Source of the DNA: a bacterium | GTDB lineage: Bacteria; SM23-31; JAUVVT01 | Reading direction: 5' to 3' | Length of the DNA stretch: 64,000 nt | NCBI GenBank assembly: GCA_030616165.1 | Contig: JAUWXV010000001.1 | Location: forward strand, 1-64,000 | In this document: piece by piece, positions 48,248-59,096 of the stretch | Layout of the letters: each line of letters opens with the position of its first letter | Position numbering within the stretch: the first letter of the stretch is position 1 | Program-made: the position numbers and the translations under genes | Notes under the pieces: model-generated | Told to the model about the DNA's origin: nothing | Databases searched by the model: none | Seen by the model: only the letters and a program-made list of their open reading frames with translations

Positions 48248-48691
48248 ATGATGAAACTTTCTACAAAAGGACGATATGGCGCGAGGTTAATGTTGGACCT
48301 TGCCATACACTATGATGATGGATTTGTTTTGTTAAAGGATATTGCTAAAAGGCAGGATATATCTGAAGGATATATGGAGCATCTTCTTCCTCATCTCAAG
48401 GCGGCAGGACTGATAAATTCATTGCGAGGTGCACGAGGTGGTTATAAACTGGCTAAAGCCCCTTCTGAAATATCTCTTAAAGAAGTAGTTCAATCTCTGG
48501 AAGGACCATTAACTCCAGCAGAATGTGTTGTTGCTCCTTCTGTTTGTAAGAGAGTTAGTTTTTGTGTTACACGGGATATATGGAAAGAAGTAGGAGAAAA
48601 AATCTCTCAGACTTTAGAATCAGTAACTCTGAAAGATATGGTTGAGATGCAAAAGAATAAAGGAAAGGCATCTCTCACATATAACATTTAA
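48248..48691 (+). CDS. Rrf2-family regulator (IscR/CymR-like)
   Basis: 147 aa; tandem ATG codons at 48248 and 48251. N-terminal winged helix [17 protein letters not shown] through [12 protein letters not shown], the family signature. Three Cys at residues 93, 100 and 106 lie where IscR binds its [2Fe-2S] cluster, so it may sense iron-sulfur or sulfide status; CymR lacks these. As first gene of the cysteine cluster with an operator across its own promoter, it probably represses the whole operon when cysteine or Fe-S supply is adequate. Confidence 0.9.
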
Positions 48692-48716
48692 CAATTTAAG
48701 AAAGGAGGATAATATA

Positions 48717-49553
48717 ATGAAAAGATTTATTAATGTTTCAGAAAAGCAGATTACAAGAGCGATTGTGAATGAATTTTGTAAGGATTTTCTTGATAATATC
48801 TACACAGAAGTTATCATTGTGGGTGCGGGGCCCAGTGGGCTTATAGCTGGGAGAGAATTGGCAAAGGAAGGATTCAAAGTGCTAATTATAGAGGCTAACA
48901 ACTATCTAGGTGGTGGCTTCTGGCTTGGTGGTTATTTGATGAATGGACTTACGGTAAGAGAACCTGCGAATGAAGTGCTTGATGAATTAGCGATTCCTAA
49001 TGAAAAAGTGGAAAAAGGCTTATATTTTGCAAATGGGCCCCATGCTTGTTCAAAACTCATAGCTGCAACATGTGATGAGGGAGCAAAGATTTTGAATATG
49101 ACTAAATTCGATGATGTTGTGCTCCGGGAAAATAATCGCGTAAGTGGGGTGGTAATTAATTGGACTCCAGTATCAAGTTTACCGAGGCAGATTACATGTG
49201 TGGACCCCGTTGCTCTTGAATCCAGAATTGTTATTGATGCTACGGGACATGATGCGTGTGTAGCTAACTCCTTAGCACAGAGAAATCTACTTAAGATTAA
49301 AGGATTTGGGGGTATGTGGGTAGAAAAATCTGAGGATTTGGTGGTAGAAAAGACCGGTGAGGTTCACCCTGGCTTAATCGCTACGGGAATGGCTGTAGCA
49401 ACTATCTTTGGAATCCCAAGAATGGGACCGACCTTTGGAGGAATGCTGCTTTCAGGAAAGAAAGCTGCCGAGGAAGCAAAGAAACTGCTAACCAAGGAGA
49501 AAGTGGATTTAGAATCTTTAACTATTGAAATAAAAGAAGAAATTGCAGTTTAA
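48717..49553 (+). CDS. Thi4-type thiazole synthase
   Basis: 278 aa from ATG 48717, behind AAAGGAGG; a longer frame overlaps the previous gene and is not needed. FAD/NAD-binding motif [14 protein letters not shown] (about 32-45), [14 protein letters not shown], and the C-terminal [21 protein letters not shown] typical of archaeal Thi4/ribulose-1,5-bisphosphate-derived thiazole synthases. The residue before the VDP motif is Cys161 (ITCVDP), the position of the sulfur-donating Cys of yeast THI4; archaeal sulfide-using enzymes have His there. So this copy may be of the self-sacrificing type. Placed between the regulator and cysK. Confidence 0.85.
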
Positions 49554-49613: not shown

Positions 49614-50546
49614 ATGGCAAAGATAGCGGATGATATAACAAAATTAATAGGGAATACCCCATTAGTCAGGCTAAACAGAATAGGAACTGGGTTAGAAGCG
49701 ACTCTAATAGCTAAACTTGAAAGTTTTAATCCTTTATCGAGTGTGAAGGATAGGATTGGAGTTTCTATGATTGAAGAAGCAGAAAAGGAAGGATTTATTA
49801 AAAAGGATACAGTAATCATAGAACCTACCAGCGGCAACACCGGGATATCACTGGCTTTTGTCTGTGCAGCAAAGGATTATCGTTTAATATTAACGATGCC
49901 GGATACTTTTTCAATTGAACGCAGACAACTATTATCAGTATTTGGAGCAGAGGTTGTCTTAACCCCTGGTCAGGAAGGGATGCCGGGAGCGGTGAGAAAG
50001 GCAGAAGAACTTTTAGAGAATACTCCTAATTCTTTTATGCCGCAGCAATTTAAAAATCCTGCAAATCCAAAGATACATAGGGAAACCACTGCGGAAGAAA
50101 TATGGCAGGATACGGATGGCAAGGTAGATATTTTGGTGAGTGGTGTAGGTACGGGTGGCACAATCACAGGAGTTGCTGAAGTAATAAAAGAAAGGAAACC
50201 TGAGTTTAAGGCAATTGCTGTTGAACCTATAGATTCGCCTGTTCTTTCGGGAGGGCAACCTGGTTCACATAAGATTCAGGGAATTGGAGCAGGATTTATA
50301 CCCGATGTTTTGAGAATGGAACTGGTTGATGAAGTAATAAAAGTTACTAATGATGACGCCGGAGAGTTTGCAAGGAGATTGGCAAAAGAGGAGGGAATAC
50401 TCGCAGGTATATCCTCTGGTGCTGCTGTACGTGCGGCAGTTGAGGTGGCAAAAAGAAAAGAAAACAAAGATAAACTTATTGTAGTCGTTTTACCGGATAC
50501 TGGTGAGCGATATCTAACTACCTGGCTCTTCCAGGAGCTTTATTAG
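49614..50546 (+). CDS. cysK: Cysteine synthase A (O-acetylserine sulfhydrylase)
   Basis: 310 aa fold-type II PLP enzyme. PLP lysine K45 in [11 protein letters not shown], Asn loop [11 protein letters not shown] phosphate loop [10 protein letters not shown], and C-terminal [11 protein letters not shown]. Makes cysteine from O-acetylserine and sulfide. AGGAG precedes the start. A second, diverged homologue fused to a TusA-like domain is in the same cluster at 52616, so two cysteine-synthase activities are probable. Confidence 0.93.
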
Positions 50547-50583: not shown

Positions 50584-50805
50584 ATGGAGGATGACATAAC
50601 AGGAGAACCAGAAATAAATGTTGATGAACTAAGAAAAAGTGGCGTAGTAAAACTAAAAGATAAAGATATGTTTTTCCTATGGATTAAAACAACGTGTTCT
50701 AATCTAAACTCAAAGTGGTTGAGGAAACTCGCTGATAATGTAAAAGAAGAACTTGGCGAAGTTTATTTATCATTAGACCGCTGTGATGTGAATAGGAAAA
50801 GATAG
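50584..50805 (+). CDS. Orphan sulfite-reductase ferredoxin-like half-domain
   Basis: 73 aa. INVDELRKSGVVKLKDKD, then FFLWIKTTCSNLNSKWLRKLADN, resembles in order and spacing the first 70 residues of the sulfite reductase at 50870 (FEALKSGGFIKQ, TVRLRCPGGKLTSRQLRKAAE). That region is the N-terminal NIR/SIR ferredoxin-like half-domain, without haem or iron ligands. So it is an independent copy of the half-domain: possibly a remnant of a duplicated reductase, or a small subunit. Parts written separately because of length limits. Weak ribosome-binding site. Confidence 0.65.
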   Translation: MEDDITGEPEINVDELRKSGVVKLKDKDMFFLWIKTTCSNLNSKWLRKLADNVKEELGEVYLSLDRCDVNRKR

Positions 50806-50869: not shown

Positions 50870-51826
50870 TTGGACGTAGAACAGAAACGAGAAGCTCGCC
50901 GTTTGAAGTTGGATTTTGAGGCACTCAAAAGCGGGGGATTTATCAAACAAACCCAGGAGAACCTCTTTACGGTGAGGTTGCGATGCCCAGGTGGGAAATT
51001 GACATCACGACAATTGCGGAAGGCTGCCGAGCTTGCTGAGAAGTATGGGAAAGGAGAGATTCATAATTCGGTTCGACAGTCAATAGAAATCCCTTATGTT
51101 CACTATCAGTACTTCGATGATATTACGGACGAACTGAAGGAAATTGGTTGGTTGGTCGCATCTTGTGGCCCTCGCATAAGGGTGCCAACTGCATGTGCTG
51201 GATGCACATGGAACCCTAATGGTCTTATGGATTCACAGTTAATGTGTCAGATGGTAGATAAACGATATTTTGGAAGAACCACAGGTCACCATAAATTTAA
51301 AATTTCCTTTTCTGGGTGTCCAATAGATTGTGCCCGAACCAGGGGGATGGACTTGGGCTTTCAAGGAATTGCTGAGCCAGAATTAGTAGAGGAATTATGT
51401 AACGGATGTGGACTCTGTATTTCAAGCTGTAGTGAAAATGCACTTACCTTAGTGAATGACCTCCCTGTAAGGGATTGCAGTAAGTGTATCTATTGTGGTG
51501 ATTGTATCAAAGTCTGTCCGATAGATGCTATAGTGGTGGGGAGGAAGGGATGGCTCGTTCGTGTGGGTGGTAAGCATGGTAAACACCCTATCTATGCCTA
51601 TGAGGTAGCTAAGTTCGTTTCTGATGAGAAATGTTTCCTACTTATTGAGAAAACCATGGAATGGTACCAGGTCAATGGTGAAGGTAGAGAAAGAATCGGA
51701 ACAGCAATTGTTCGGTTAGGTCTCTCCAAATACCTTGATGAAGTTGTAAAACCATTGAGTCTGGAGATTATCGATAAGTCTGAAGAGAGAAGAAAGTTCT
51801 GGACTGAAGGGAACCTGTATGTCTGA
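50870..51826 (+). CDS. Siroheme-type sulfite reductase with ferredoxin domain
   Basis: 318 aa; TTG start behind GGAGGAG. N-terminal half-domain (1-75), siroheme/4Fe-4S domain with C109 and C112 in ACAGCTWNPNG and C150/C154 in SGCPIDC, then two 4Fe-4S motifs (C177, C180, C183, C187 and C206, C209, C212, C216). The usual first siroheme-cluster motif is Cx5C; here the second Cys position is Asn and an extra Cys lies at +3. The architecture resembles AsrC and archaeal short sulfite reductases. Reduces sulfite to sulfide for the two cysteine synthases beside it. Confidence 0.85.
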   Translation: MDVEQKREARRLKLDFEALKSGGFIKQTQENLFTVRLRCPGGKLTSRQLRKAAELAEKYGKGEIHNSVRQSIEIPYVHYQYFDDITDELKEIGWLVASCGPRIRVPTACAGCTWNPNGLMDSQLMCQMVDKRYFGRTTGHHKFKISFSGCPIDCARTRGMDLGFQGIAEPELVEELCNGCGLCISSCSENALTLVNDLPVRDCSKCIYCGDCIKVCPIDAIVVGRKGWLVRVGGKHGKHPIYAYEVAKFVSDEKCFLLIEKTMEWYQVNGEGRERIGTAIVRLGLSKYLDEVVKPLSLEIIDKSEERRKFWTEGNLYV

Positions 51827-51893
51827 TGAAGTTGCATATTGAGCGAAATATAGCTAATGATTATTATTAGAAAATATAAAAGGATTGTTAAAA

Positions 51894-52619
51894 ATGGAAA
51901 ATAAAATTGAGCATGCCAAAAGATTGATTGAAGAGGCAATAAAAAACTATCCAAGGGTGGGGGTAGCATGCTCTTTTGGGAAAGACAGTATAGTAACGGT
52001 TCATCTGGCAAGAGAGGTAGACCCAAATATAGAGGTTTTCTCAATAATGACCCAGTACAAACCAAAAGAAACTTTTGAGTACCTCAGGTTAATGAATAAA
52101 AAGATGAATCTTAGAATCACTGTTTATATGGTAGCTGATAGCGTTCCGGAGGCTCTTAAGGATGGTTCTCTAAAAGTAAGACTGTTACCAACTGATGAAT
52201 TTCACCAAAGAACATCTGAAATAAAGACTCAAACCGGCAAAAAAATTTATGAAATAAATCCGGATGAATGCTGCCGACTACTTAAAGTAGAGCCGGCCAA
52301 AGTAGCTGTGAGCAATCTTGACGCTTGGATATGTGGCTTAAGAAACACTGAAGGCAGAATAAGAGAAAATTATCAGGAAGTAGAAAATAAGGGTGGGCTT
52401 ATCAAGATAAACCCAATTCTAACATTTACCGAAGCCGAGATATGGAGATATATAGCCACCAGAGGTATTGAACCACATACCTGGTATAGGAAAGGTTATC
52501 GGTCTCTCGGCTGTGCGCCTTGCTCGCGAGCAGGAGGAGAACTTGAGCGAGACGGTAGATGGAAAGATACAAGCAAATGTGGAGGGGAGTGCGGCATACA
52601 CACTCAAATATTAAAATGA
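51894..52619 (+). CDS. cysH: APS/PAPS reductase
   Basis: 241 aa from ATG 51894; AAAGGA upstream. PP-loop SFGKDS (27-32); C126-C127 and C207/C210 (CAPC) form the CC...CxxC pattern that binds a 4Fe-4S cluster in APS-type reductases; the C-terminal catalytic Cys is C233 in ECGIH. Reduces adenylylsulfate to sulfite, feeding the reductase upstream. No ATP sulfurylase or APS kinase is in the cluster. Its TGA overlaps the next start by four bases. Confidence 0.92.
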   Translation: MENKIEHAKRLIEEAIKNYPRVGVACSFGKDSIVTVHLAREVDPNIEVFSIMTQYKPKETFEYLRLMNKKMNLRITVYMVADSVPEALKDGSLKVRLLPTDEFHQRTSEIKTQTGKKIYEINPDECCRLLKVEPAKVAVSNLDAWICGLRNTEGRIRENYQEVENKGGLIKINPILTFTEAEIWRYIATRGIEPHTWYRKGYRSLGCAPCSRAGGELERDGRWKDTSKCGGECGIHTQILK

Positions 52620-53836
52620 TAAATCAAGAAAAATATTCAGAAAACAGAAGACAGGGTAAAGAATTAGACCATCAATTAAGGGTCTATTCTGATATAACAC
52701 AACTAATAGCCAGTCCACAGAATCCGACACCATTAGTTAGATTAAATAGAATCAACCCTGATAAGGATTTTCAAATTTATATTAAACTGGAAAGATATAA
52801 TCCATTTGGTTCAGTTAAAGATAGGATTGTTTATGAAATGCTAAAGGCATTGGAAGTAAGGGATAGAACAGTGGTTGAGCCATCATCGGGAAATACGGGG
52901 ATTGCGTTAGCTTGTGTTGCCAATGCATTGGGAATACCGGTTGAGATTGCTGTTCCAGAGAGAATTCCTGATGAAAAAAAGGTAATGCTAAAATTTTTAG
53001 GGGCTAAGGTAACAGAAGCTGATGACGCACTGTGCCCTTTATTTCCTACTGAAGGAGCCAGGGGTTTAGTAAACGCCTTGATAAAAAGCCCGGCTACTAA
53101 AAATAGCTATGTTAGCCCCAATCAATACGAGAATGAATTGAATGTTCAAGCCCATTACCAAACCACGGGACCAGAAATATGGAAGCAAACACAAGGTAAA
53201 ATCGATTATTTCTTTGCTGGATTTGGCACCTGTGGCACAATAACTGGTGTCGGTAGATATCTCAAAGAGCAAAATCCAAAAATAAAGATTATTGGCGTAG
53301 AACCTTCTTCCCCCAACCATAAATTGCCCGGGATGAAGAGAATAACCGGGTTAGATGAGGAGTTTATACCGAAAATTCTAGACCGCTCATTAATCGATGA
53401 TATCGTATCAGTAACCGATGAAGAAGGTTATAGAACTGCTATAAAATTAGCCAGAAAAGATGGAATTCCTGTTGGTCCTACCACGGGGGCTATACTTTGT
53501 ATTGCCTTAAATTATGCCAAACTAAATAGAGGTTTAGCTGTTGTTATATCACCTGATGACGCATTCAAATACGCAAGTTACTACAAGGTTATCTTGGAAA
53601 CAGGATTCAGAGAAATTAAGGAAAAAGAGTATGATTTGTGTGGTTTAGTTTGCCCTCTATCAAAGATAAAAGCGATAGAATTATTAGATAATCTTGGTGA
53701 AGGAGAAACTGCAAGAGTAATACTAGGAGATAGCGAATCTCTCAAAAGCGTGGTGCAAGAATTAAAAACCAGAGGAATAAAACCAGGTTTTGAACAAGAG
53801 AGCGAAAGTAGATTTATATTGACTATTACTATATGA
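52616..53836 (+). CDS. Cysteine synthase-TusA fusion protein
   Basis: 406 aa, ATG overlapping the cysH stop (ATGA). Residues about 20-330 are a CysK/CBS-type PLP enzyme: K68 in FGSVKDR, PSSGNTGIA, GFGTCGTITG, GPTTGAILC. After a linker, residues about 340-406 form a TusA/SirA-like domain: DLCGLVCPLSKIKAIELL, GDSESLKSVVQELKTRG, ending with a strand RFILTITI. The sulfur-carrier Cys of TusA (CPxP) would be C346 in CPLS, with C342 as a second thiol. So the domain could carry persulfide to or from the PLP site. Cluster context makes sulfur delivery the likely job. Confidence 0.88.
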   Translation: MINQEKYSENRRQGKELDHQLRVYSDITQLIASPQNPTPLVRLNRINPDKDFQIYIKLERYNPFGSVKDRIVYEMLKALEVRDRTVVEPSSGNTGIALACVANALGIPVEIAVPERIPDEKKVMLKFLGAKVTEADDALCPLFPTEGARGLVNALIKSPATKNSYVSPNQYENELNVQAHYQTTGPEIWKQTQGKIDYFFAGFGTCGTITGVGRYLKEQNPKIKIIGVEPSSPNHKLPGMKRITGLDEEFIPKILDRSLIDDIVSVTDEEGYRTAIKLARKDGIPVGPTTGAILCIALNYAKLNRGLAVVISPDDAFKYASYYKVILETGFREIKEKEYDLCGLVCPLSKIKAIELLDNLGEGETARVILGDSESLKSVVQELKTRGIKPGFEQESESRFILTITI

Positions 53837-53892: not shown

Positions 53893-54120
53893 ATGGAAAG
53901 CCACAAAAGAAGCATCATAAAAGCTATTACTTGGCGGGTTATTGCTTCTCTAATTATATTCGTAATTGCTTATTTATTTACAAAAGAAGTAGTATTATCA
54001 GTGGGTATAGGCATTTCCGATACAATTGTAAAAATTGTTACTTATTACTTTCATGAAAGGATGTGGAATAAAATAGATTTTGGAAGAGAGAAAAGAGATG
54101 AAGAAGATTATTCGATATAA
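53893..54120 (+). CDS. DUF2061 membrane protein
   Basis: 75 aa with two hydrophobic helices and the family pattern RSIIKAITWRVIASLIIF, then YYFHERMWNKI. DUF2061 proteins often accompany sulfate-assimilation genes and may be associated with sulfate or sulfite handling at the membrane, but the function is not established. Confidence 0.88.
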   Translation: MESHKRSIIKAITWRVIASLIIFVIAYLFTKEVVLSVGIGISDTIVKIVTYYFHERMWNKIDFGREKRDEEDYSI

Positions 54121-54174: not shown

Positions 54175-54843
54175 ATGAGAAGTCTTATGTTTAAGACATT
54201 GAAGGAAGATATTCAAACAGTTTTCAGTAAAGACCCGGCTGCCAAAAGCGTGATAGAGGTTATCTTTTGCTATCCTGGACTCCATGCCATTTGGATGAAT
54301 AAAATTGCACATTTCTTCTGGATGCATAAGTTTCTCTTTATTGGAAGGTATATTTCCCATGTTAATCGCTGGCTGACGGGGATTGAGATTCACCCGGGAG
54401 CAAAGATTGGGAGAAGATTTTTTATTGACCATGGAATGGGAGTAGTAATAGGAGAAACTGCCGAGATTGGTGATGATGTTTTGCTTTATCAGGGCGTGGT
54501 TTTAGGTGGCAGAAGTTTCGAAAAGAAGAAACGGCATCCTACTCTCGGAGATAATGTTGTTGTTGGAGCAGGGGCTGTTATTTTAGGTCCAGTAAATATC
54601 GGGGAAGGTGCAAAAATAGGGGCAGGGAGTGTGATACTTCAGGATGTTCCTTCGGGTGCAACAGCAGTTGGTGTTCCAGGGAAGATTAAAATGGGATTAT
54701 CAGCTAAATTGATGGAGGATTTGGAACATGGGAAAATACCAGACCCTATTTTCAGTACTATTCAGTTTATGATAGAGGAACAGGAAAAACTTGCAAAAAG
54801 GGTAAAAGTGTTAGAGTCTCAAGGCAGCAACTTTTCGAATTAG
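54175..54843 (+). CDS. cysE: Serine O-acetyltransferase
   Basis: 222 aa. N-terminal helical part ([15 protein letters not shown]) and a left-handed beta-helix with [25 protein letters not shown], where the catalytic Asp-His pair lies, and hexapeptide repeats to about residue 180. Makes O-acetylserine, the substrate of both cysteine synthases in the cluster. AGGAG precedes the start. Confidence 0.93.
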
Positions 54844-55090: not shown

Positions 55091-56272
55091 ATGAAAGATA
55101 AATTGAAATCGTCAACCAGGTGTGTTCACTATGGTGAGAATAGAAAAGAACCGTATTATTCTGTTATCACACCAATTGTCAATTCGGCTCCATATAGATT
55201 TAGTTCCAGCAAAGAATTATTGGATTTTGTTACAGGTAAATCATCAAGAACCCAGCCAGAATATGGGCGAATGGGAAATCCCACGGTTACATCCGTTCAG
55301 GAAAAACTTGCAAGGTTAGAGGGTGGGAAAAATGCACTGCTTTTTGCAAGTGGAATGTGTGCAATTACGACAGCATTATTTGTACTTTTGAAAAAGGGTG
55401 ATCATATTGTCATAACCAATGATTCATACCGTCGGACAAGAGACTTTGTTTTAAATTTTCTTCCAAAGTTCGGGATTAAATCAACAATAACAAAATCGAC
55501 TTCATCTGATATTAAGAAAGCATTAAGGAAAACAACAAAAATAATCTTTTCAGAATCCCCGACAAATCCTTACCTTCATGTTTTAGATTTGAAAGCAATT
55601 GCTGATATTGGAAAGCAGAATAATATTATAACTATTATAGACAGCACTCTTGCCACTCCTGTAAACCAGAAGCCATTACAATATGGGATTGACCTTGTCA
55701 TACACTCGGCTACAAAGTATTTGGGAGGGCATAACGACCTGATTGCAGGCGTTTTAATTGGTTCAGATAAACTGGTTCAGCCGATTGCTGAATTATTAAT
55801 GACCATAGGAGGTATTTGTGACCCCAATACGTCGTATTTAATCGAAAGAGGTTTAAAAACGCTCGATTTGCGAGTAAAAAGACATAATGAAAATGGGCAA
55901 AAAGTAGCACAATTTCTTGAGAAGCATCCAAAAGTTTTAAAGGTTTTTTATCCGGGTTTAAAAAGCCATCCAGACCATAAGATTGCAAAACGTCAAATGA
56001 AAGGATTTGGAGGATTACTTTCTTTTTTACTCCAAACCGATTTTAAGGGAGCAATGAAATTTATTGATAGCTTAACAATTCCCCAGATTGCTCCAAGTTT
56101 TGGTGGACCCGAATCGCTTATTGAACAACCTGCGCTGATGTCTTTTATGGATATCAAAAAAAAGGAAAGGGAGAGAATAGGAGTTTTTGATAATTTAGTA
56201 CGATTATCTCTCGGTCTTGAGGACAGTGAAGATATCATCGAAGACCTGAAGAGAGGTCTGGAAAAACTATAG
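55091..56272 (+). CDS. Cys/Met metabolism PLP enzyme (cystathionine gamma-synthase/beta-lyase family)
   Basis: 393 aa. PLP-binding Lys in HSATKYLGGHNDLI, aspartate in IIDSTLATP, Tyr/Arg region YGRMGNPTV, and GMCAITTAL. The family includes cystathionine gamma-synthase, beta-lyase, gamma-lyase and O-acetylhomoserine sulfhydrylase; the motifs do not settle which. In this cluster it would link cysteine to homocysteine or desulfurate. Separated from cysE by repeats, so it may have its own promoter. Confidence 0.88.
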   Translation: MKDKLKSSTRCVHYGENRKEPYYSVITPIVNSAPYRFSSSKELLDFVTGKSSRTQPEYGRMGNPTVTSVQEKLARLEGGKNALLFASGMCAITTALFVLLKKGDHIVITNDSYRRTRDFVLNFLPKFGIKSTITKSTSSDIKKALRKTTKIIFSESPTNPYLHVLDLKAIADIGKQNNIITIIDSTLATPVNQKPLQYGIDLVIHSATKYLGGHNDLIAGVLIGSDKLVQPIAELLMTIGGICDPNTSYLIERGLKTLDLRVKRHNENGQKVAQFLEKHPKVLKVFYPGLKSHPDHKIAKRQMKGFGGLLSFLLQTDFKGAMKFIDSLTIPQIAPSFGGPESLIEQPALMSFMDIKKKERERIGVFDNLVRLSLGLEDSEDIIEDLKRGLEKL

Positions 56273-56495: not shown

Positions 56496-59096
56496 ATGGA
56501 CTTATTTTTACAAGATGGGGCGAGGGTAGGAATTATAGGTGGGGGTCCCTCTGGGAGTTTTACGGCTATTCATTTATTGAGCATTGCAGCTTCGCTTAAC
56601 AAAAAAATTAAGGTATTCATCTTTGATAAAAAAGATTTTACATCTGGTTTAGGGTGTAATTTTTGTGCAGGCATTCTTTCTAATACACTAATTAAAGAGT
56701 TAGTCCAATATAATATTATTATCCCGCCAGAGATAATCCAAAGAGAGATTAAAGGATACTATTACGAGACGAGAGAGGGGACAGCATATTTCCCAAAGCC
56801 ATCTACTTCATCAATTTTCAGTGTGTTCCGAGCAAATGGACCTTGCAGCTCAAAAGAATTATATAACGTTAGTTTTGACTATTTTCTTCTACAAGAAGCG
56901 ATTAAAAGGGGAGCAAACAAAATAGACACCAATATCAATGAAGTCATTTTTCCTTCCACTCCACAGGATCGAGTATCACTTTACTCACAGGAGCAAAATA
57001 CATATTATGAATTTGAACTGGTATTCGGTGCATTTGGAATAAATACTCCTTTTATTAAAGAATTAGAAAAATCAGGAATCGGATACAAAGCCCCAAAATA
57101 CCTGCATTCTGGTCAGGCTGAGATCCCCTACGATATATCTTTGAATAAAAAGTTTCATGACAATGTCACTGTTTTTCTTATTCCTCTCAGGAATTTATAC
57201 TTCTTTTCCTTTACACCAAAAGCAGAGTATTTAACGGTTACCGCTATTGGTCCTCATGTTACAAAAGCAATGCTGGAGGAAATATTTACCATTCCGCAGG
57301 TTATGAAATATTTTCCAGACAAATGGCAGTTCCCATTGGAGTATTGTCACTGTCATCCAAGAATATCTGTTACTATTGCGGAAAATTTCTTCTATCACCG
57401 TTTTGTGGTTGTCGGAGATGCTTGTTGGTCAAGGTATCTCAAGGATGGTATTGCATCTGCATTTTATACCTCAAAATTCGGAGTTGAATGTGCTTTCAAA
57501 TATGGGATTTCACGTAATGCGTTCCGGGACAGATACTTTAGGGAAATTACTCGGATGGATAAAGATAATACTGTAGGAAAAATTTTATTTAAAATCCATA
57601 ATAGATTGAAAAGGTCGCAGACTGTGCGGGGCTCTCTTTTTTCGATGACCAGAGATTACTATCATAAAACAATTCAGGAAAATGTACGATATATCCTATG
57701 GGGTTTATTTACAGGTGATTACTCTTATAAGAAGATAATGAGAAAATCTTTTAGGATTTCATTTATCGTGCCCTTTATTATAAATATTATTAATGCATAC
57801 CTGAAGATTATCTTTAATAATCTGTCAAAAATTAATAAAAAAACAAAATTAAGACCAATAAAAAATCAGAGCAGTAATGTAACAGTGTCAAATTTAGTAA
57901 ACGGAGATACAATTATTGTTATTGGTGGGGGACCAGCAGGCACTTCTTGTGCAATACATGCAAAAAAACTTGCTGTAAATAATAATATAGACTTGTCAGT
58001 CATATTAATCGAACCTAAAACTTTTAGCATACATTACAATCAGTGTGTTGGTGTTCTTTCCCCTAGGATAAAACAATTGATGGGAGATATAGGTATAGAC
58101 TTCCCGGAACATTTAATTCAAACAAAAATTCCAGGGTATTATTTGAATGCAAATGGTGAAGAAATATATCTTCCTTCTGATAAACATAACGATATTGGAC
58201 TTGCTTTAAGGCGGAATGAGTTTGATGCTTTTATGATAGAGCAGGCTTTGCGGAACGGAGTACAAGTTGTCCGGGGAGAAGTTGTGACATTCGATTATTC
58301 AAAAAATGACAAAAAGAATAAATTCATTGTTTATTGCAATTCCGGCACTTATAAGTGCAATTTTATTGTAGGTGCTTTTGGTGTCGGGAATGGGATTGCC
58401 CTTGATTTTTTTAAAACTTTCCGGTACCGACCTCCACATATTCTTCAATCAATTGTTTCCAAAATTCATCCTCTGGATAATTTATATATTGATGAAATTT
58501 TTGGAAATAATATCCATACTTATCTCCCTAAATATAAAGCAATTGAATTTGGAGCAATAACTCCAAAGGGCAACCATTTAACAGTCAATATCGCCGGTGA
58601 AAAAATCAGTTTTAAAGATATGGAATATTTTCTAATGATAGATGAAGTAAAAAAATGGATTCCCCCCCATAAAGAACGAACTTACTTTAAAGGTCAATTC
58701 CCAACAAGTCCTGCACATCGATTCTATGGAGATAATTACTTGATCATAGGTGATGCGGCTGGTTTAGTTCGGCCATTTAAAGGAAAAGGTGTAAATTCAG
58801 CAATTCTCTCAGGTAAAATTGCTGCTGAAACTATCGTGAATTATGGCACAACGGCTCTTGCAATAAAACGAAACTTTGTACAACATCCACAGATACAAAA
58901 AATATTAATCGATTATAAATATGGAAAAATTATAAGAAAATTAACTATTCAGGCTTCACATCATAATCTTTTAAAATATATAATTAATTATGCAAAAAGA
59001 AATAAAACGTTCGAAACCGCTCTATATAATGCTGTCTCTGCTAACAGACTTTATAAGGATATTATTTTATGTACTTTAAGAAACTTAGTGAGTTAA
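56496..59096 (+). CDS. Tandem-duplicated FAD-dependent oxidoreductase
   Basis: 866 aa made of two related flavoprotein units of geranylgeranyl-reductase type. Unit 1: dinucleotide motif IGGGPSGSF (about residue 14), NFCAGILS, and VVVGDACWS; unit 2 from about residue 470: VIGGGPAGTS, NQCVGVLSPR, and LIIGDAAGLVRPFKGKG. Between them is a hydrophobic stretch (ISFIVPFIINIINA), perhaps membrane-associated. Such a fusion is uncommon. It precedes a NapC-like multihaem cytochrome by 66 bases, so it may pass electrons from FADH2 to the quinone/cytochrome system. The substrate is unknown. Confidence 0.8.
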   Translation: MDLFLQDGARVGIIGGGPSGSFTAIHLLSIAASLNKKIKVFIFDKKDFTSGLGCNFCAGILSNTLIKELVQYNIIIPPEIIQREIKGYYYETREGTAYFPKPSTSSIFSVFRANGPCSSKELYNVSFDYFLLQEAIKRGANKIDTNINEVIFPSTPQDRVSLYSQEQNTYYEFELVFGAFGINTPFIKELEKSGIGYKAPKYLHSGQAEIPYDISLNKKFHDNVTVFLIPLRNLYFFSFTPKAEYLTVTAIGPHVTKAMLEEIFTIPQVMKYFPDKWQFPLEYCHCHPRISVTIAENFFYHRFVVVGDACWSRYLKDGIASAFYTSKFGVECAFKYGISRNAFRDRYFREITRMDKDNTVGKILFKIHNRLKRSQTVRGSLFSMTRDYYHKTIQENVRYILWGLFTGDYSYKKIMRKSFRISFIVPFIINIINAYLKIIFNNLSKINKKTKLRPIKNQSSNVTVSNLVNGDTIIVIGGGPAGTSCAIHAKKLAVNNNIDLSVILIEPKTFSIHYNQCVGVLSPRIKQLMGDIGIDFPEHLIQTKIPGYYLNANGEEIYLPSDKHNDIGLALRRNEFDAFMIEQALRNGVQVVRGEVVTFDYSKNDKKNKFIVYCNSGTYKCNFIVGAFGVGNGIALDFFKTFRYRPPHILQSIVSKIHPLDNLYIDEIFGNNIHTYLPKYKAIEFGAITPKGNHLTVNIAGEKISFKDMEYFLMIDEVKKWIPPHKERTYFKGQFPTSPAHRFYGDNYLIIGDAAGLVRPFKGKGVNSAILSGKIAAETIVNYGTTALAIKRNFVQHPQIQKILIDYKYGKIIRKLTIQASHHNLLKYIINYAKRNKTFETALYNAVSANRLYKDIILCTLRNLVS

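Follow-up and report, generated by a model that had tools for sequence, protein, structure and literature searches.

A cysteine synthase-like enzyme fused to a divergent TusA domain in an assimilatory sulfate-reduction operon: a candidate for carrier-coupled cysteine synthesis

Introduction

In the textbook view, free sulfide passes from sulfite reductase to cysteine synthase, a PLP enzyme that converts O-acetylserine into an enzyme-bound α-aminoacrylate, to which the sulfur nucleophile then adds. The mycobacterial CysM-CysO-Mec+ system works differently, in that sulfur reaches the cysteine synthase on a small carrier protein, the ThiS-like CysO, which bears it as a thiocarboxylate and is released by a JAMM peptidase.

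The free-sulfide view has recently been challenged (PMC13188885, 2026). In that study assimilatory sulfite reductases release zero-valent sulfur (S0), which is proposed as the intermediate, while CysK and CysM accept glutathione persulfide to give a GS-cysteine mixed disulfide, which has to be reduced. A DsrC carrier was sought and none was found; no protein carrier was identified, and the authors left the carrier, the opening of the mixed disulfide and its in vivo reductant unsettled. DsrC, itself a small cysteine carrier that takes up sulfur from the siroheme enzyme of dissimilatory sulfite reduction, offers an analogy here (PMC13188885), although it belongs to a different protein family and the carrier described below would feed cysteine synthesis.

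That TusA keeps company with sulfite reductase is already known. Burroughs and colleagues (PMC1779556, 2006) described sulfate-assimilation operons with PAPS reductase and sulfite reductase which also hold SirA (TusA) together with ThiS, JAB and E1-like genes, and predicted a rhodanese-like role for SirA. The locus described here resembles their class 4e operons in combining PAPS reductase, sulfite reductase and TusA/SirA. It differs in that their TusA is a separate protein and ThiS was thought to be the acceptor, whereas the TusA described here forms one polypeptide with a cysteine synthase-type enzyme or, in relatives, with sulfite reductase. Within the open-access literature, as surveyed by titles, abstracts and term counts, we came across no account of a TusA-cysteine synthase fusion, of this sister family of CysK, or of a TusA domain that swaps between the two enzymes.

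Results and Discussion

The fusion gene and its operon

The gene lies in a 64,000-nucleotide stretch of bacterial DNA, referred to here as the window. It occupies 52616..53836 on the forward strand, which also carries the other window genes given below with both end coordinates, and encodes 406 amino acids: a PLP domain related to CysK and CysM (residues about 20-330), followed by a TusA domain. Pfam finds PALP at residues 35-306 (228.5 bits, 1.4e-67) and TusA (PF01206) at residues 337-405 (35.8 bits against a curated cut-off of 28.6).

The fusion is part of a sulfur gene cluster, which begins with an Rrf2-type regulator (48248..48691, by profile match), a type of gene that recurrently heads these operons. 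A Thi4-type thiazole synthase follows (48642-49553, TIGR00292), which is likewise recurrent beside sulfur genes in related operons; its listed TTG start overlaps the upstream gene, and an internal ATG is the likelier start. Next come a canonical cysteine synthase CysK (49614..50546), scoring well above the cysK equivalog cut-off, a siroheme-type sulfite reductase that is AsrC/DsrB-like with a ferredoxin insert (50870..51826), and cysH, encoding an APS/PAPS reductase (51885..52619). The last two were identified from profile matches, and CysH retains its CC, CxxC and ECGIH cysteines. The fusion ATG (52616-52618) overlaps the cysH TGA (52617-52619), the two being read as ATGA. Downstream of the fusion are a small DUF2061 membrane protein (53893..54120, by profile match), which is a recurrent neighbour in related loci, then CysE (54175..54843, above the cysE cut-off), the serine O-acetyltransferase that supplies O-acetylserine, and a Cys/Met-metabolism PLP enzyme starting at 55091. 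The sequence-only reading had proposed a CysK-type enzyme joined to a TusA-like domain, translationally coupled to cysH and close to sulfite reductase and CysE, and had pointed to K68, C342 and C346 (in a CPLS motif). All of these features are present as it described them, the TusA match being above its curated cut-off and a TusA fold being predicted.

Profile searches of the window genome found the TusA domain of the fusion to be the sole PF01206 match, and the sulfite reductase two genes upstream to be the sole NIR_SIR match; the lack of a second copy is bounded by a genome completeness of 90%. No gene for ThiS, a MoaD-like carrier, a JAMM/JAB peptidase or an E1-like protein was recognised among the neighbours of the window gene, which is a further difference from the class 4e operons.

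Two other reading frames in the region were noted. A 73-residue ORF (50584-50805) looks like an internally deleted N-terminal piece of a second sulfite reductase half, with 40% identity to the two-copy sulfite reductase of locus L003 (residues 6-90), which suggests that such a second half is decaying in the window genome. Farther downstream, an 866-residue ORF (56496-59096) resembles, by eye, two tandem flavoprotein halves of the geranylgeranyl-reductase-like kind.

The enzyme half is a sister family of CysK and CysM

The PLP domain shares fold type II, the catalytic lysine and the substrate and phosphate loops with the O-acetylserine sulfhydrylases CysK and CysM. K68 (codon 52817..52819), the expected Schiff-base lysine, is invariant across the family, and together with the motifs [PA]SSGNTG, GTCGT and GPTTGA it aligns with the catalytic lysine and PLP/substrate loops of CysK and CysM. 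Identity is 38% to E. coli CysK and 35% to E. coli CysM, and structural comparison with such enzymes gives a Z of about 30.

Despite these likenesses, the domain falls under every NCBIfam cut-off for CysK, CysM and CBS (cysK 242.7 against 350.95, cysM 245 against 394.2, cysKM 268.9 against 344.15). On the tree the family separates from the CysK and CysM references with support 100/99, at a point where long branches meet. It also carries signatures that are missing from the references, namely C140-P141 and P144 in an inserted loop, N169, E172, E174-L175, H235 and P288. By sequence, then, this is a CysK/CysM sister family of its own, and an uncharacterised one. Searches for a solved structure inside the family found none: a profile search returned only generic cysteine synthases, CBS and related enzymes, and comparison of the whole model gave matches to the PLP domain only.

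C140 (codon 53033..53035) is present in 46/46 family members and absent from the CysK/CysM references; C206, in GTCGT, is found in 39/46. The C140 loop immediately precedes the stretch that aligns with KGM of E. coli CysK, the Met of which is residue 120. M120 acts as an active-site gate of CysK, and entries for H. influenzae CysK M120 mutants are among the PDB structure matches of the fusion model. On the alignment, C140 is thus an invariant loop cysteine adjoining the CysK active-site gate.

In a scan of genome contigs, Chloroflexota, Planctomycetota, Kiritimatiellota, Fidelibacterota and Gammaproteobacteria yielded relatives sharing about 54-89% identity. A Phycisphaerales group is more distant (42-47%), and generic cysteine synthases come after it. 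The plasmids searched hold distant relatives only, under 60% identity. Few of the sampled Chloroflexota and Planctomycetota genomes contain a family member (8/197, 2/294 and 4/400).

The C-terminal domain is a divergent TusA

The fusion protein was modelled with good confidence (pLDDT 90, pTM 0.81). Its C-terminus is predicted to form a βαβαββ fold in which C346 (codon 53651-53653) sits just ahead of helix 1 (348-359). When the TusA domain (residues 337-406, 53624..53833) was folded alone (pLDDT 88.8), the solved structures that matched it best were the YeeE-YeeD complex (Z 11.8), followed by the SirA-like DSY4693 (11.4) and E. coli TusA (10.6, 10.3 and 9.8). The domain shares with TusA, YeeD and SirA-like carriers both the fold and the CP acceptor cysteine: C346 and the proline after it are invariant in 22/22 aligned TusA sequences.

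It differs from these carriers in its divergence and in its fusion to a PLP enzyme. It scores 36-39 bits with PF01206, whereas the highest-scoring TusA copies of related genomes reach 79-94. In NCBIfam the best equivalog score is 25.9 bits against a cut-off of 79 (YedF), the score is also far below the YeeD cut-off, and the TusA equivalog gives no match. The window motif is CPLS, having lost the second proline of CPxP, which is intact solely in L007 and L012 among the aligned TusA domains of clade A (defined below). The C-terminal domain is a genuine but divergent member of the TusA family.

Of the two cysteines named by the sequence-only reading, one is conserved and the other is not. C346 is found in 20/20 aligned clade-A TusA domains, fused or adjacent, but position 342 is Cys in only 8/20, and a conserved C342/C346 redox pair was rejected.

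The TusA partner persists through fusion and separation

Clade A takes in the Chloroflexota type together with the window copy and those of two Fidelibacterota/FCB bins, 29 distinct loci in all. The sources of the loci are draft bins, which may be mislabelled (L011, for example, is labelled Planctomycetota and L028 Undinarchaeota). TusA accompanies the enzyme in 26/29 of the clade-A loci. It is fused in 16 (the window, L002-L004, L006-L010, L012-L014, L021, L023, L116 and L118); in the other 10 it is encoded by the adjoining gene, no more than 69 bp on (L005, L011, L015-L017, L019, L031 and L120-L122). In L020 (901-2289) an enzyme of the same family is fused instead to a rhodanese domain, which replaces TusA. 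L018 and L022 have neither domain nearby, although L018 comes from the same isolate as L031, where the split pair is found.

Fused and split states are interleaved on the tree, where the starred branches require no fewer than four changes, and it follows that the association has outlived repeated fusion or fission. It was considered that the split forms could be assembly frameshifts. This was rejected, since the architecture recurs across the tree and all seven of the split tusA starts inspected follow purine-rich Shine-Dalgarno-like runs; L021 alone resembles a frameshifted fused gene. We regard it as very probable that TusA is a working partner of the PLP enzyme.

Operons of the Dehalococcoidia type go on, as in L008:7312-9184, with an 80-residue NIL-domain protein, an IscS-type desulfurase and an IscU-like scaffold, and some of them contain a ThiF homologue.

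In relatives TusA sits on sulfite reductase

Outside clade A the partner is arranged differently. In three Planctomycetota loci (L024, L030 and L039) the enzyme itself carries no fused TusA, and directly upstream of it lies a long sulfite reductase with a C-terminal TusA, whose end is 25-103 bp away. In the genomes of L024, L025, L026 and L030 the sole TusA detected is the one inside sulfite reductase. L028 has a separate TusA gene between sulfite reductase and the enzyme, and L040 has DsrE and TusA genes downstream. The planctomycete loci also carry ThiS, ThiF and JAMM genes. A Kiritimatiellota locus (L134:3115-5907) encodes a 931-residue protein which joins an N-terminal JAB domain (JAB/JAMM peptidase) to sulfite reductase and TusA; the same cluster holds genes for ThiS, ThiF and CysK.

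In the Phycisphaerales loci L049-L051 a rhodanese gene adjoins the enzyme (identified in L049, with the same cluster in the others), and a profile search detected no TusA in the genomes of L048, L050 and L051. Neighbours at other loci include a TauE sulfite exporter, and an arylsulfotransferase with an ABC transporter, which are compatible with sulfite as the source. The gammaproteobacterial members have no carrier directly adjacent, which implies that the enzyme can function without a linked TusA.

A possible route for protein-bound sulfur

What is observed is that TusA is joined to the enzyme and has followed it in evolution; everything beyond this we infer. The best overall explanation, which we consider probable by a modest margin, is that the protein is a carrier-coupled cysteine synthase within an assimilatory sulfate-reduction operon. 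C346 would be loaded with sulfane sulfur, either by sulfite reductase or by a persulfide derived from its product. The PLP domain would form α-aminoacrylate from O-acetylserine on K68, and the C346-S-SH persulfide would attack it to give a TusA-S-S-cysteine mixed disulfide, C346-SSH taking the role of glutathione persulfide in the published scheme (PMC13188885). Reduction of this disulfide, perhaps by C140 or thioredoxin, would free cysteine and reset TusA. Transfer from the carrier to the PLP-bound aminoacrylate would then be of the CysM-CysO type. The analogy is one of how the systems work (M. tuberculosis CysM was compared with the fusion), and the carrier differs in being a cysteine-based TusA held in cis.

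These parts are not equally secure. We lean towards TusA as the sulfur donor of the PLP enzyme, as the sequence-only reading had suggested: the persistence of the partner whether fused or split, the rhodanese swap and the presence of TusA on sulfite reductase in relatives all speak for it. A functional C342/C346 pair is not supported. The gene content of the operon (CysH, sulfite reductase and CysE), and the location in it of the sole TusA and NIR_SIR matches of the genome, also favour the carrier-coupled reading. Whether sulfite reductase is the direct source is close to an even question, tilting slightly to the negative. It is doubtful that C140 participates, as a candidate resolving thiol at the mouth of the pocket. 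Taken as a whole, the idea that reduced sulfur stays protein-bound from sulfite reductase to cysteine, with TusA as the missing assimilatory S0 carrier, its persulfide serving a dedicated cysteine synthase as direct nucleophile, and an invariant cysteine at the active-site mouth resolving TusA-S-S-cysteine, is tentative. Against the carrier-coupled synthase stand L018 and L022, which have no carrier nearby, the divergence of the window TusA and its loss of the second CPxP proline, and the gammaproteobacterial members. The canonical CysK in the same cluster means that free sulfide may also be used.

The sulfur could also flow the other way, with the PLP domain acting as a β-lyase on cysteine or cystine and loading TusA, which would in turn supply tRNA thiolation, Fe-S clusters or other acceptors. 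Cysteine is the usual source of TusA sulfur, as established for IscS-TusA, no other TusA was detected in the window genome, and several related operons have IscS and IscU genes. However, the enzyme sits with CysH, sulfite reductase and CysE, in a route that makes cysteine from sulfate, several such operons own a dedicated IscS-type desulfurase, and the planctomycete TusA is on sulfite reductase, the upstream supplier. Loading of the carrier from cysteine, which the sequence-only reading had offered as its alternative, is on these grounds graded as less likely, and we consider the reverse direction improbable. The same holds for a TusA domain that is a docking or regulatory module, binding sulfite reductase or sensing persulfide while the PLP domain uses free sulfide. 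CysK enzymes are indeed regulated by small partners at the active-site mouth, and the gammaproteobacterial relatives manage without an adjacent carrier, yet fused and split forms alike keep the acceptor cysteine without exception, and rhodanese shares persulfide chemistry with TusA but not its fold, so that the swap argues for sulfur transfer.

An origin of the sulfur in thiosulfate also appears unlikely. TusA would in that case carry thiosulfonate or a thiosulfate-derived persulfide, and the enzyme would be CysM-like. This would suit the closest solved fold, which is YeeD of a thiosulfate-uptake complex, the alignment of K241-R242 with the Arg-Arg of E. coli CysM, and the statement in PMC4175335 that thiosulfonate can be carried by TusA and DsrE. 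Set against this, the genes of the operon are those of sulfate and sulfite reduction, the neighbour profiles gave no recognisable YeeE-type transporter next to the window gene, and the exporter found at other loci is the TauE sulfite exporter.

Returning to the carrier-coupled synthase, the occurrence of TusA on the cysteine synthase-type enzyme in one clade and on sulfite reductase in another is evidence at the genome level in favour of a carrier protein linking the two steps, and the single polypeptides make this idea testable. If true, it would add to CysM-CysO a second way of making cysteine that avoids free sulfide.

Origin of the window copy

On the tree the window copy groups with the Chloroflexota type, at a fork with support 82/88 that is not starred. 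Because it does so while the relative G002 holds the other, unfused enzyme type, horizontal acquisition of the window copy is likely. A misbinned Chloroflexota contig is not favoured: the GC content of the window (36%) matches that of the genome's other contigs (32-37%) and lies below that of the Chloroflexota-type relatives (about 44-59%). Of the six genomes examined from the phylum to which the window's genome belongs, two have the enzyme, each a different type, and this suggests that it was acquired horizontally on separate occasions.
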